A stretch of DNA of 64,000 nt from NCBI GenBank assembly GCA_022821085.1, contig JAJEEG010000006.1:62001-126000 (forward strand), in the 5' to 3' direction. Within the stretch, counting starts at the first letter, position 1. Every line of letters begins with the position of its first letter. This document shows, in pieces, positions 17,580-26,347 of this stretch. The translations under genes were made by a program, and so were the position numbers. The DNA is from Candidatus Latescibacterota bacterium. GTDB lineage: Bacteria > JAAXHH01. Under the pieces are notes generated by a model, which was not told the origin of the DNA, searched no databases, and saw nothing but the letters and a program-made list of their open reading frames with translations.

Positions 17580-18350
17580 TTGTCATCCGAAATCAGTATC
17601 CTGAATCTGATTCTGGATTCGGGCGCCGTCGCCAAGACCGTCATTGTCGTTCTCCTGATGTTCTCCATCGTTACATGGGCGATCATGGCGGAGCGCTGGC
17701 GGTACTTTCGCCGGGCCCAGGCGCAGTCGGGGGAGTTCCTTGCGTTCTTCCGGTCGGAGCGCAACTACAGACAGGTTTACGCCGCCGCCTCGAAGTTGCC
17801 GTTCAGTCCCGCTGCCGCGGTGTACCGCGAGGTATACGAGAAGTACGCGCCGGCGTTTCCGCTTCCGGCCGGCGGCGCAGGCCATGCGGACCATGCGGAC
17901 CATGCGGACCATGCGGGCCATGCGGGCCAAGCGGACCAGGCGGACCAGGCAGGCCGGCCGAAGGAAGCCGACCAGGACCTGGTGGAATCCGTCTATCGCG
18001 ACCTGCGGCTGGCCGCCCACCGGGAACTGGCCCGGTTCGAGCAACGTCTTCCCCTGCTGGCCACCGCCGGAAGCGTGTGTCCGTTTCTCGGCCTGTTCGG
18101 AACGGTGTGGGGTGTCATGACCGCCTTTCTGGACATCAGTACCCAGGGCTCTACAAATATCGTGGTCGTGGCGCCCGGGATCGCGGAAGCCCTGATCACG
18201 ACGATCGCGGGTCTGGCCGTGGCGATCCCGGCCATGGTGGCGTATAATTTCTTCGTGCAGCGGTCGCGGGTGCTGGGCCTGGAACTCGAGGACCTGGCCA
18301 CCTCGGTACTGAACATCCTCCAGTTGCGGACCATCGCGGGGAGGCCATGA
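17580..18350 (+). CDS. tolQ: TolQ/ExbB-family proton channel subunit
   Basis: This 256-residue inner-membrane protein is the stator channel of the Tol-Pal motor, turning proton flow into work on TolA. An N-terminal helix (VIVVLLMFSIVTWAIMAERW), a long cytoplasmic loop, and two C-terminal helices carrying LLATAGSVCPFLGLFGTVWGV and ALITTIAGLAVAIPAM are the MotA/TolQ/ExbB pattern. The cytoplasmic loop holds a run of His-Ala-Asp and Gln-Ala-Asp triplets from a 9-bp repeat (17881-17952), not known in the family. The start is a TTG at 17580 with AAAGGA upstream at 12 nt; a TTGACA at 17500 may belong to its promoter, but no good -10 is visible. The stop overlaps tolR (ATGA). Confidence 0.9.
   Translation: MSSEISILNLILDSGAVAKTVIVVLLMFSIVTWAIMAERWRYFRRAQAQSGEFLAFFRSERNYRQVYAAASKLPFSPAAAVYREVYEKYAPAFPLPAGGAGHADHADHADHAGHAGQADQADQAGRPKEADQDLVESVYRDLRLAAHRELARFEQRLPLLATAGSVCPFLGLFGTVWGVMTAFLDISTQGSTNIVVVAPGIAEALITTIAGLAVAIPAMVAYNFFVQRSRVLGLELEDLATSVLNILQLRTIAGRP
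17881..17952 (+). repeat. 9-bp tandem repeat, 8 copies, inside tolQ
   Basis: Eight units of the form RCCAWGCGG or close variants fill 17881-17952 and encode a GHADHADHADHAG... stretch that drifts into QADQADQAG. The first copies are nearly identical and the last have changed His to Gln, suggesting ageing at the 3-prime end. Confidence 0.85.
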
Positions 18351-19389: not shown

Positions 19390-19457
19390 AACCGCAACGA
19401 ACGCACGCGGTACCCTGACCCGGGGCCAGGATCGGATTACAGCTTGGAAGGCTTGCA

Positions 19458-20969
19458 ATGAGAGAACATCGGAGTGCCTGGCCGTTGCGGAGTGCCTGGC
19501 CGTTGCGGAGTGCCTGGCCGCTACAGAGTGCCTGGCCGCTACGGAGTGCCTGGCCGTTGCGGAGTGCCTGGCCGTTGCGGATCCTGCTGACAGCATGCGT
19601 CCTGTTTCTGCCCGGCGCGCAGTCCGCGTCGGGCCAGGACGAGGTCAATCTCAGCGTGCAGGCCCGCGTCTCCCCCCGCATACCGATCGCCTTCAAGCCC
19701 TTTGTCCCCAAGGATGGGACGGCCTTCGACGCCGCCGTCCAGGACACCGTCAACCAGGTACTCATGCGGGACCTGTCCTTCTCCGGCGTATTCGCCGTGC
19801 GGGACCTTTCCATCCCGGCCCGGGTCGGTGCGGACGATGGCGCCCAGGTACTGACGGGCAGCGCGGGCGACACCACCTACGTATTCCTGGACGCCGCCGG
19901 CGAAGTGGACCTCGAGCTGCTTCGCAAGTTGTCCGTGCAGGTCATGGTGTCGGGAACGTACGAAGTATCGGGAACCCGGGTGGAGATCTCCGTGCGTCTT
20001 ACCGACCTGGGTACCCGGCGGACGATCCTCGAGAAAGGATACGCCGCCTTCGAACTGACATTGAGACGGATCGTGCATCTCATGGCCGACGACATCGTGT
20101 TCCAGCTGACCGGGGACCGGGGCACCGCCCAGACCCGAGTCGCCTTTATTTCCCAGCGCAGCGGCGCCCCGGAACTGTACATCTCGGATTACGACGGTTA
20201 CAATGTCCGCCAGCTGACCCGGGACGGCGCACGGAAATATTCGCCGAACTGGTCGCCGGACGGCACCAGTATCGCCTACACCTCCTACCGGGACGGCCCC
20301 CACGAACTGTATATCCTCGACCTGCAGAGCGGGGAGACCCGCAAGGTCCCTTTCGGGGGAAGAACGGTGCTATCGCCGCGCTGGTCGCCGGACGGCCGCC
20401 ACCTGATCCTGAGCCTGGTCACGAAGGGGGTTTCCAGGCTGTACATCAGCACGCTGGACGGGAGCCGGCTGGTACCGCTGGCGACCGGTTACGGGATCAA
20501 CGTTTCACCGTCCTGGTCACCGCGGGGCGACCAGGTGGTATACATGTCGGACCGATTGACACAGAAGCACCTGTACGTTATTAATATAGATGGCTCGAAC
20601 GATCATCGCATCACCTTCGAGGGCGGTTACAACGGATCGCCGGCGTGGTCGCCCCGGGGCGACCGCATCGCCTTCGTGGGCGGTGATCTGGCGACGGGAA
20701 GGCGGGGAGGCCCCCGGCGGGTCTTCAATATCTACACCTGCGACGTCAACGGCAGCAACCTGGTAAAACTCACGGGCGTCCGCGGACCGGAAGGAGACAA
20801 CGTGAACCCGACCTGGTCCCCGGACGGACTGCACATTCTCTTCAGTTCCGACCGCGTCCGCAGCGGAGCGTACCATATATACCGGATGTCCTGGAACGGA
20901 GGCGACGTCCATCCCGTCATTACGGAGGGCAACAACCGGCAGCCCAGCTGGGGACCCCGACCCGAATGA
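19458..20969 (+). CDS. tolB: Tol-Pal system protein TolB with repeat-expanded N-terminus
   Basis: This 503-residue periplasmic protein would bind Pal and TolA. A TolB N-terminal domain (RIPIAFKPFVPKDG onward) is followed by five or six PD40 blades (NWSPDGTSIAYTS, RWSPDGRHLILS, SWSPRGDQVVYMS, AWSPRGDRIAFVG, TWSPDGLHILFSS). The extraordinary part is the start: between the ATG at 19458 (GGAAGG at 19446-19451) and the hydrophobic core ILLTACVLFLPGAQ lie six SAWPLR-type hexapeptides from an 18-bp repeat. This greatly lengthens the signal-peptide n-region. No good later start exists before the core, apart from weak CTG/TTG codons. The stop overlaps cpoB (ATGA). Confidence 0.92.
   Translation: MREHRSAWPLRSAWPLRSAWPLQSAWPLRSAWPLRSAWPLRILLTACVLFLPGAQSASGQDEVNLSVQARVSPRIPIAFKPFVPKDGTAFDAAVQDTVNQVLMRDLSFSGVFAVRDLSIPARVGADDGAQVLTGSAGDTTYVFLDAAGEVDLELLRKLSVQVMVSGTYEVSGTRVEISVRLTDLGTRRTILEKGYAAFELTLRRIVHLMADDIVFQLTGDRGTAQTRVAFISQRSGAPELYISDYDGYNVRQLTRDGARKYSPNWSPDGTSIAYTSYRDGPHELYILDLQSGETRKVPFGGRTVLSPRWSPDGRHLILSLVTKGVSRLYISTLDGSRLVPLATGYGINVSPSWSPRGDQVVYMSDRLTQKHLYVINIDGSNDHRITFEGGYNGSPAWSPRGDRIAFVGGDLATGRRGGPRRVFNIYTCDVNGSNLVKLTGVRGPEGDNVNPTWSPDGLHILFSSDRVRSGAYHIYRMSWNGGDVHPVITEGNNRQPSWGPRPE
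19472..19579 (+). repeat. 18-bp tandem repeat, 6 copies, in the tolB signal region
   Basis: The unit GAGTGCCTGGCCGTTGCG occurs at 19472, 19490, 19508, 19526, 19544 and 19562. Four copies are identical and the third and fourth differ only in the last five bases (CTACA, CTACG). It encodes SAWPLR five times and SAWPLQ once. Confidence 0.92.
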
Positions 20970-21961: not shown

Positions 21962-22603
21962 ATGAAAAGATGGCGCAGCACGTATTCGGTCCTGGCGCTC
22001 TGTGTGTTGGTCGCGGCTCCCGCATGGATAGGTGCCGCCTGCGCCAGGGGTCCTTCCGCGGAAGAACTGGCCGCGATGGAGGCAGCGCGTCAACAGGCCA
22101 TAGCGGATTCGCTCAGAGCGGCACGCGCTGAAGAGGAAGCCCGTCTGGCGGCCGAGGAAGAAGCCCGGCGCATGGCCGAGGAAGAAGCCCGTCTCGCGGC
22201 CGAGGAAGCAGCCCGTCTCGCGGCCGAAGAGGAAGCCCGCAGGGCTGCCGAGGCCCGGCACCAGGAGATGATGTCCCTTTCCACCGTCTACTTCGACTAC
22301 GACATGTCGAACATCCGGGAAGACCAGCGTTCTGCCCTGGACGAGAACGCCCGCAAATTGCGGGAGTACCAGCCCGAGGATATGGTGATGGTCGAGGGTC
22401 ACTGTGATGAACGGGGTACGATCGAATACAATCTGGCGCTGGGCGAGCAGCGAGCCCAGGCGGTCAAGACGTACCTTGTGGATGCCGGCGTGGCGGAGGG
22501 CCGCATCGAAACCGTCAGTTTCGGTGAAGAACAGCCGGCGGTCATGGGTGGTGACGAAAGCGCGTGGTCGCAGAACCGGCGCGCCGAGTCGAAACGCAAG
22601 TAA
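21962..22603 (+). CDS. pal: Peptidoglycan-associated lipoprotein Pal, copy 1
   Basis: This 213-residue OmpA-family protein tethers the outer membrane to peptidoglycan. A signal sequence ends near IGAACARGPS. A charged helical region of repeated EEARLAAEE heptad-like units follows (about residues 45-95). The OmpA/Pal domain is STVYFDYDMSNIREDQ, VEGHCDERGTIEYNLALGEQ and QNRRAESKRK. The GHCDERGT form is the classic Pal version. AAAGGAG precedes the ATG. It follows cpoB by 165 nt and ends at a strong terminator (22638-22665). Confidence 0.92.
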   Translation: MKRWRSTYSVLALCVLVAAPAWIGAACARGPSAEELAAMEAARQQAIADSLRAARAEEEARLAAEEEARRMAEEEARLAAEEAARLAAEEEARRAAEARHQEMMSLSTVYFDYDMSNIREDQRSALDENARKLREYQPEDMVMVEGHCDERGTIEYNLALGEQRAQAVKTYLVDAGVAEGRIETVSFGEEQPAVMGGDESAWSQNRRAESKRK

Positions 22604-22870: not shown

Positions 22871-23524
22871 ATGAAGCGATGGAGCAATACGGCATCGGTC
22901 CTGGCGCTCTGCGTGCTGGTCGCCGCTCCCGTGTGGATGGGCGCCTGCTGCGCCGTAACCCGGGGACCTTCCGCGGAGGAACTGGCCGCGATGGAGGCGG
23001 CGCGTCAACAGGCGATCGCGGATTCGCTCAGGGCGGTACAAGCTGAAGAGGAAGCCCGCTTGGCGGCCGAGGCGGAGGCCCGGCGCATAGCCGAAGAGGA
23101 AGCCCGTCTGGCGGCCGAGGCGGAAGCCCGGCGCGTGGCCGAAGAGGAAGCCCGTCTGGCGGCCGAGGCGGAAGCACGGCGACAGGAGATGATGTCCCTG
23201 GCCACCGTCTACTTCGATTACGACCAGTCGGCTGTCCGGGAAGACCAGCGCGCGGTCCTGGATGAAAACGCCCGCAAGCTGCGGGAATACCAGCCCGAAG
23301 ACAGGGTGGTGGTCGAGGGCCACACCGATGAACGGGGCACGATCGAATACAACCTGGCGCTGGGTGAACGGCGTGCCCAGGCGGTCAAGGCGTACCTCGT
23401 GGATGCCGGCGTGGCGGAAGACCGTATCGAGACCGTCAGTTACGGTGAAGAGCGGCAGGCGGTCATGGGCAGCGACGAAAGCGCCCTGGCGCAGAACCGG
23501 CGTGTGGAGCTCAGGCGCCAGTAG
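22871..23524 (+). CDS. Peptidoglycan-associated lipoprotein Pal-like, copy 2
   Basis: The 217-residue paralogue of the preceding pal has a lipobox at WMGAC, three longer repeats of AEAEARR-x-AEEEARL, and an OmpA domain (ATVYFDYDQSAVREDQ, VEGHTDERGTIEYNLALGER, QNRRVELRRQ). It has GHTDERGT, the OmpA-type form, where copy 1 has GHCDERGT. AGGAAAGGAG precedes the ATG. Gene, leader and terminator are all similar to copy 1, showing a duplication of the whole unit of about 900 bp. The two copies may be used under different conditions, since copy 2 has its own promoter. Confidence 0.9.
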   Translation: MKRWSNTASVLALCVLVAAPVWMGACCAVTRGPSAEELAAMEAARQQAIADSLRAVQAEEEARLAAEAEARRIAEEEARLAAEAEARRVAEEEARLAAEAEARRQEMMSLATVYFDYDQSAVREDQRAVLDENARKLREYQPEDRVVVEGHTDERGTIEYNLALGERRAQAVKAYLVDAGVAEDRIETVSYGEERQAVMGSDESALAQNRRVELRRQ

Positions 23525-24485: not shown

Positions 24486-26347
24486 GAATGGCTTTCCCCG
24501 GGGCTTGAGTGATCGTTGCCGTTGACTCCGTTGCCGTTGAATACGCAAGCGCGGATCATGTCCGCGGCTTCTTCCAGGTCGAAACAGGCGGGATCGACAG
24601 GGATCCCGGCTTCACAGGCGGCGGCCAGCAGGTCGCACAACCCGGGCCGTCCGGGCTGCCCCGGCGCTCCGGGCCGTCCACACTGCCGCGCGTCAACGCC
24701 GGCCTCCCGGGCGAACAGGCGGACCGGCGTGGTGTCCGCCGCGATGCCGCCGTCTTCCATGACCAGGATCCGGTCCGCCAGGTGGGCGATCAGGTCCATG
24801 TCATGGGTGATCAGGAAAAGGGTCGTCCCCTTCGCCTTGCAGGCCATGAAAATCGCTTCGACCTGCCGTACGCTTTGCGGATCGAGCCCGGACGTGGGTT
24901 CATCCAGCGCGAGAACGGAAGGTTCCATGGCCAGGATTCCGGCGATCGCGGCCCGGCGTTTTTCCCCGCCGCTCAACGATAGGGGATGCCGATGTGAAAA
25001 CCGGCCGGGGTCCAGGCCTACCTGCTCGAGCGCCCGGTTAACCAGGTCCGGGATTTCCGACGCTGCGAAACCCGTCTGCCGGGGACCGAAGGCCACGTCG
25101 TCGAACACGGTTTCCTCGAACAACTGGGCCTCGGGAAACTGGAAGACCAGTCCCACCTTCTGACGCAGCTTTTGCAGGTCGGTCTTTGGGGACGTCACAT
25201 CCGCTCCCTCGACCCGAACCGTGCCCGAATCCGCCTTCAGCAGGCGGTTGAGGTGCTGAATCATCGTGGACTTACCCGAGCCGTTCGGCCCGGTCAGCGC
25301 GACGCACTCCCCGGGGAACACCCGGGTGGTTACGTCGCGCAGCGCGGGGATCTCCAGGGAAGTGCCGGGGGAATAGGTATGGCACACCCGTTCGAAGGCG
25401 ATGATGGGCGGCGTGGACGGCGGCTCGGGCGCCCCTGGCGACTCGAGTACACTGGGTGGCTCAGGTGCTATTGGCGACTCGGGCGCCCTTGGCGACTCGG
25501 ACGCCCTTGGCGACTCGGACGCCCTTACGGTCAGCCACTGGACCAGGGGCTTCGGAAGAACGATGCCGTCCGGTACCGCGACACCGCGCGTGCGCAGGGC
25601 GTCCGCCAGCCGTTTGGCCAGCGGCGCGTCGAGCCCGTGTGCCGCGAGACGATCCGTTTCCCGGTACACTTCCTCCGGCGTTCCCTCGGCGGCGACGTCC
25701 CCGTCCACCACCAGCGCGATGCGGTCCATCCGGACGGCTTCCTCCGGCGACTGCGTAATGAAGACCACGCTCAACCGGTATTCCTCCACGATCGCCAGGA
25801 GCAGGTCGAGTATGTCCCGCCGGTCGCCCGGGTCCAGCGACGAGGTGGGCTCGTCGCATACGAGGTAACGGGGGCGCATGGACGCCACGGCGGCGATGGC
25901 CAGGCGCTGCTTCTCGCCGCCGGACAACCTGTGGGGAGGATACTGGCGGTACTTTTCCAGGTTGAACCGGCTTAAGGCCCACGCGACACGGTCGTGGATC
26001 TCCGGGGAAGGCAGGCCGAGGTTTTCCAGGCCGAAGGCCACTTCCCGTTCCACCGTGGTGGAGACCAACTGGTTGTCCGGGTTCTGAAAGATCATGCCGG
26101 CCCGTTGATGGACCGGCCACTTGTTCTCCAGGTCCGCCGTGTCCAGGCCGTCCACCAGGACCCGGCCGGACCGGGGAACGATCAATCCGTTGAGGCAACG
26201 GGCGAGCGTGCTCTTGCCCGAGCCGTTGGGTCCGATCACGGCCAGGCTTCCGGAATCGCCGATCTCAAGGGACAGGCCCTTCAGCGTGGGGACCTCGTCC
26301 CCCGTCGGAAGATGGTAGCTGAAAGATACGTCTTCGACGACGATCAC
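24479..26347 (-). CDS. Fused ECF-transporter ATPases (EcfA1-EcfA2 in one chain)
   Basis: The 622-residue protein carries two complete ABC ATPase domains. Domain 1 has GPNGSGKST (39-47), a PDNQLV Q-loop, LSGGEKQR and LVCDEPTSSLD. Domain 2 has GPNGSGKST, FPEAQLF, LSGGEKRR and LALDEPTSGLD. The two Q-loop types are those of EcfA1/EcfA2 (CbiO), which drive vitamin, nickel or cobalt uptake with EcfT and an S-component. The domains are joined by a Ser/Glu/Pro linker from an 18-bp repeat. The GTG at 26347 overlaps the larC stop (GTGA). Nickel uptake is suggested by the larB-larC neighbours but not proven; an S-component gene lies at 44662 and no ecfT is in the window. Confidence 0.9.
   Translation of the reverse strand: MIVVEDVSFSYHLPTGDEVPTLKGLSLEIGDSGSLAVIGPNGSGKSTLARCLNGLIVPRSGRVLVDGLDTADLENKWPVHQRAGMIFQNPDNQLVSTTVEREVAFGLENLGLPSPEIHDRVAWALSRFNLEKYRQYPPHRLSGGEKQRLAIAAVASMRPRYLVCDEPTSSLDPGDRRDILDLLLAIVEEYRLSVVFITQSPEEAVRMDRIALVVDGDVAAEGTPEEVYRETDRLAAHGLDAPLAKRLADALRTRGVAVPDGIVLPKPLVQWLTVRASESPRASESPRAPESPIAPEPPSVLESPGAPEPPSTPPIIAFERVCHTYSPGTSLEIPALRDVTTRVFPGECVALTGPNGSGKSTMIQHLNRLLKADSGTVRVEGADVTSPKTDLQKLRQKVGLVFQFPEAQLFEETVFDDVAFGPRQTGFAASEIPDLVNRALEQVGLDPGRFSHRHPLSLSGGEKRRAAIAGILAMEPSVLALDEPTSGLDPQSVRQVEAIFMACKAKGTTLFLITHDMDLIAHLADRILVMEDGGIAADTTPVRLFAREAGVDARQCGRPGAPGQPGRPGLCDLLAAACEAGIPVDPACFDLEEAADMIRACVFNGNGVNGNDHSSPGESHSC
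25418..25528 (-). repeat. 18-bp tandem repeat in the ECF ATPase linker
   Basis: Repeating GGCGACTCGGACGCCCTT-type units, tight at about 25470-25528 and increasingly degenerate towards 25418, encode ASESPR, APESPI and APEPPS-type hexapeptides between the two ATPase domains. Confidence 0.75.

Follow-up and report, generated by a model that had tools for sequence, protein, structure and literature searches.

A six-copy in-frame repeat in the predicted TolB signal peptide of a Latescibacterota bacterium and its setting among genus-wide minisatellites

The tolB gene of this Latescibacterota bacterium carries, in frame between its ATG and the sequence of the hydrophobic core of a predicted signal peptide, an array of six 18-bp units that is, as judged from comparison with congeneric TolBs, a lineage-specific expansion from one to six copies of an ancestral n-region hexapeptide. 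The explanation that we consider likely is recurrent in-frame minisatellite expansion, tolerated by a permissive n-region, belonging to a genus-wide process and most probably near-neutral in origin. Features of the gene are listed in Table 1, with positions counted within the window, i.e., the whole 64-kb stretch of DNA that was analysed.

Table 1. Coordinates of tolB and of the features at its 5' end
Feature	Position (strand)	Description	Basis
Shine-Dalgarno-like GGAAGG	19446..19451 (+)	6 nt ahead of tolB ATG	
tolB	19458..20969 (+)	503 codons, ATG 19458, stop 20969	Pfam domains, PDB TolB matches, orthologues
n-region of predicted signal peptide	19458..19580 (+)	41 codons, net charge ~+6	
Six 18-bp units, codon phase	19470..19577 (+)	RSAWPL x3, QSAWPL, RSAWPL x2	TRF and unit listing
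Hydrophobic core ILLTACVLFLPGA	19581..19619 (+)	aligns with that of the single-unit signal peptides in congeners	
c-region QSASG, predicted cleavage before QDEV	19620..19634 (+)		inferred from congener alignment

Both TolB_N and PD40 propeller repeats were found above the Pfam gathering score in the encoded protein, which also matched solved TolB structures in a PDB search (down to 2e-48) and was 83-95% identical to its orthologues in congeners. The top NCBIfam model was that for TolB protein, TIGR02800, although the score of 316 bits was below the equivalog cut-off of 343 bits. The gene is flanked by a tolA-like gene and cpoB/pal-like genes within a tol-pal cluster of ExbB/TolQ, ExbD/TolR, TonB_2/TolA-like, TPR/CpoB-like and OmpA/Pal-like genes. 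Assignment as TolB thus rests on domains and gene order, the sub-cut-off TIGR02800 score being read beside the distance of the phylum.

The array was called by TRF at 19470-19581 (period 18, 6.2 copies, 93% match, score 189), whereas top scores were 77 among 30 Markov-simulated windows and 60 among 500 codon shuffles of tolB. Its units, in the order CGGAGTGCCTGGCCGTTG x2, CGGAGTGCCTGGCCGCTA, CAGAGTGCCTGGCCGCTA and CGGAGTGCCTGGCCGTTG x2 again, lie head to tail within the coding frame, have a length that is a multiple of three and are nearly identical, which is consistent with recent origin. Recent origin would likewise explain the near-invariant peptide across copies, as could selection. The initial annotation had placed the array at 19472-19579, which is the same 108 bp shifted two bases from codon phase. 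The exact unit did not occur in the genome outside the tolB array. Its interpretation as a dispersed repeat element was rejected, given 15 scattered single matches outside the array (2-3 mismatches) as compared to 7 for a reversed control.

Features expected of a signal peptide cleaved by signal peptidase I, namely a basic n-region, a hydrophobic core (mean hydropathy 2.61) and a small residue at the predicted -1 position (Gly), were all evident from the sequence. The predicted signal peptide is 59 residues in total, and the congeners show ASG, SASA or SVSA ahead of QDEV in alignment. The claim that the array stretches the n-region to about 40 residues agrees with the 41 counted here, compared with approximately 11 in congeners; the corresponding net charges are approximately +6 and +2 to +6. 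The repeat tract itself is not hydrophobic, its highest 19-residue mean hydropathy being -0.15. A lipoprotein reading, in which LTAC would approximate a lipobox, was set aside; the Cys is not conserved, several congeners having Phe or Leu instead, and it falls within the hydrophobic core.

The origin of the array was evident from comparison across the genus, in which tolB was present in 11 of 12 genomes (one per species, with the genome under study, G000, included). Thus, one unit was noted in eight congeners (degenerate in G004 and G011), two in G007 and six in G000, so that copy number varies between related lineages (1, 2 or 6 among congeneric species). Examples of single-unit N-termini are MRKQRSAWTLR-ILLAACVLSLL in G006, with an 11-residue n-region, and MRKHLCAWPLR-ILLAACVLPLL in G003, and the two-unit N-terminus of G007 is MIEQRSAWPIRSVWPLR-ILLAAC; G005 has a single unit and an unclear start. 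No unit was seen in the TolBs of other genera (G012, G013 and G014). The six-copy state is therefore, as initially proposed, peculiar to this TolB among those examined, but the repeated Arg and Trp residues are not foreign to TolB as had been supposed, since the unit is ordinary single n-region sequence in the genus. Six units are present but only five were gained, one being ancestral. Phylogeny of the TolB core placed G007 with G004, G005 and G011 at 91% support, apart from G000; remaining nodes close to G000 were weakly supported. The second unit of G007 was thus probably a separate gain, and the G007 and G000 expansions, from the position of these sequences in the tree, are probably independent. 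Isolate names, together with literature on sponge Latescibacterota (e.g., PMC12993501), indicate that the source bacterium and its congeners are probably sponge-associated.

The comparison shows that an 18-bp block, single in the TolB n-region of most congeners, has been duplicated in tandem repeatedly, with slippage or recombination between direct repeats as the likely cause. The six-codon unit keeps the frame, each step inserting one (R/Q)SAWPL, and frame-breaking lengths would then have been purged by selection. Beyond the lengthened n-region, the signal peptide has stayed alike among congeners, as has the mature protein. Export would probably still proceed via Sec and signal peptidase I, its route probably unchanged because an n-region is expected to tolerate length while it remains basic and non-hydrophobic. 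The same process would affect linkers, loops and N-terminal tails throughout the genus, with tolB as one case, which makes a near-neutral origin most likely.

The extent of this process was estimated from the window and a 400 kb sample taken elsewhere in the genome, in which array densities were 35.9 and 24.8 per 100 kb, respectively, compared with a mean of 1.2 arrays per 64 kb of simulated sequence. Periods were divisible by three for 20 of 23 arrays in the window and 78 of 99 in the 400 kb sample (p ~2e-20 for the latter against an expectation of one-third). Syntenic regions of congeners contained 12 to 28 arrays per 100 kb and sampled genomes of other genera and families mostly 0 to 15, although the value of 21.7 for G043 shows that high array density is not unique to this genus. 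Counting against a near-neutral origin, the tolB array has one of the highest scores, equalled or exceeded by only 4 of the 99 arrays sampled over 400 kb.

The majority of coding arrays in the window with alignable flanks vary by whole codons among congeners. An insert in a dehydrogenase, for example, ranges from 9 to 23 residues. Similar observations were made on an in-frame HADHADHADHAGHAGQADQADQAG insert of the TolQ-like protein (17883-17955; 1 to 25 residues in the matching stretch of congeners), a Gly-rich in-frame repeat (1837-1911) in a large ORF at 265-2304 (4 to 52 residues) and another array of six 18-bp units (25419-25526), the source of a SESPRA-type linker that joins the two ABC domains within an ABC transporter (27 to 58 residues). 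A few coding arrays are constant or nearly so, including those of two pal-like genes, for which lengths alone were used as the automatic frame choice was antisense. These neighbouring OmpA-domain genes (21962-22603 and 22871-23524) contain 48-bp repeat regions of near-constant length and are apparently a tandem gene duplication retained across congeners.

Two further genes, both outside the window, resemble tolB in that in-frame units precede the first hydrophobic segment and copy number depends on species. Thus, a 33-bp tandem repeat in an FtsH-like protease (L096:13504-15612) encodes RGNRQQAP-type units, approximately one to four in number among congeners, in the cytosolic N-tail ahead of the first membrane segment, and the signal-peptide n-region of a TPR/SH3 lipoprotein (L078:9214-10146) is extended by repeats, its orthologue in G002 (L136) having approximately seven copies of IPRLGA. 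The units in both genes are unrelated in sequence to that of tolB, each having come from its own gene. The ftsH orthologue of G007 (G007:C104:16519-18590) was recovered as two overlapping match pieces, one with a stop, which suggests a frameshift in either the gene or the assembly.

Among other explanations, the one in which repeat number tunes TolB export, a longer and more basic n-region altering targeting or its rate under selection, is unlikely but retains the most weight. The changes in n-region length and charge noted above are in its favor, as is the finding that the number of in-frame repeats in Escherichia coli tolA alters stress tolerance (PMC3477136), which shows that repeat variation in the Tol-Pal system can matter and makes an effect of the tolB repeat possible. 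However, variation of this kind was seen across the genus in numerous unrelated genes, and eight congeners have retained a single unit. The tuning role specific to tolB that had been suggested initially was thus not borne out, the array being one among many in-frame minisatellites that vary across the genus. A broader proposal, that the hypervariable n-region and N-tail repeats of TolB, FtsH and the TPR/SH3 lipoprotein are contingency loci which, through copy number, adjust the targeting or turnover of envelope proteins, appears slightly less probable again.

Initiation of translation at a TTG inside the array, with the extra units either untranslated or confined to minor products, is also improbable, and more so than either of the foregoing. 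The units that carry TTG also have GGAG, with TTG following approximately 10 bases later, and the last TTG (19575) would yield MRILLTACVLFLPGAQSASG, a complete and ordinary signal peptide; moreover, anti-Shine-Dalgarno pairing was alike for internal sites (-6.1 kcal/mol) and the ATG (-5.5 kcal/mol). Against this, TTG is a weaker start codon than ATG, the internal GGAG is missing from G001, G002, G003 and G008, and length differences 3' of the ATG are in whole codons. The ATG and upstream site were, in contrast, retained in 10 of the 11 genomes with tolB, the latter as GGAAGG or GGAAAG, with G005 as the exception. A further in-frame ATG occurs 9 to 10 codons upstream in many congeners; this codon is AGG in the present genome, leaving 19458 as the first usable start. 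A mis-set start, which had been raised as grounds for rejecting the extended n-region, was itself rejected, as both the ATG and the ribosome-binding site can be aligned among congeners and are kept in those without extra units.

It is highly improbable that the array functions at the level of RNA or DNA, i.e., as a leader structure or protein-binding site, with the peptide incidental; although it lies immediately 3' of the start codon, where structure can influence translation, predicted folding was not stronger than that of shuffled sequences (z of +1.56 over 19420-19640 and +0.40 over the array itself) and the exact unit is confined to tolB. Assembly artefact, a concern as the genome was taken to be a metagenome assembly, is the least credible explanation, considering that internal variants (CTA, CAG) mark individual copies, that the array is just 108 bp within a 2.87 Mb contig and that expansions of the same class occur at other genes in congener assemblies.

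The tolB case shows that a conserved envelope protein can acquire 30 repeat residues in its predicted signal peptide between congeneric species. That in-frame minisatellites pervade this Latescibacterota-type genus is a more interesting context than the tolB array alone, and these arrays provide a natural set for asking how much n-region length is tolerated and which repeats are selected rather than merely tolerated. Open-access papers yielded nothing relevant on tandem repeats in signal-peptide n-regions, which is weak evidence of absence.

Two known systems offer partial parallels. The repeat of E. coli tolA, contraction of which is RecA-dependent (PMC3477136), resembles that of tolB, each being an in-frame minisatellite within a gene of the Tol-Pal system, with a unit of whole codons (15 bp in tolA, 18 bp in tolB) and lineage-variable copy number. 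However, in tolA it is domain II of the mature protein that contains the repeat, whose copy number varies within a species and has a measured effect, whereas the tolB repeat lies in a signal peptide predicted to be cleaved and differs in copy number between species. Autotransporters and two-partner secretion proteins have long signal sequences with an extended signal peptide region (PMC2805444) which, like that of the present TolB, exceed 50 residues and consist of an extended N-terminal part followed by an ordinary hydrophobic core. The likeness is one of organisation. In contrast with those extensions, which share a common domain organisation across many proteins, that of TolB, a soluble periplasmic protein, consists of its own n-region sequence repeated in tandem in one lineage.
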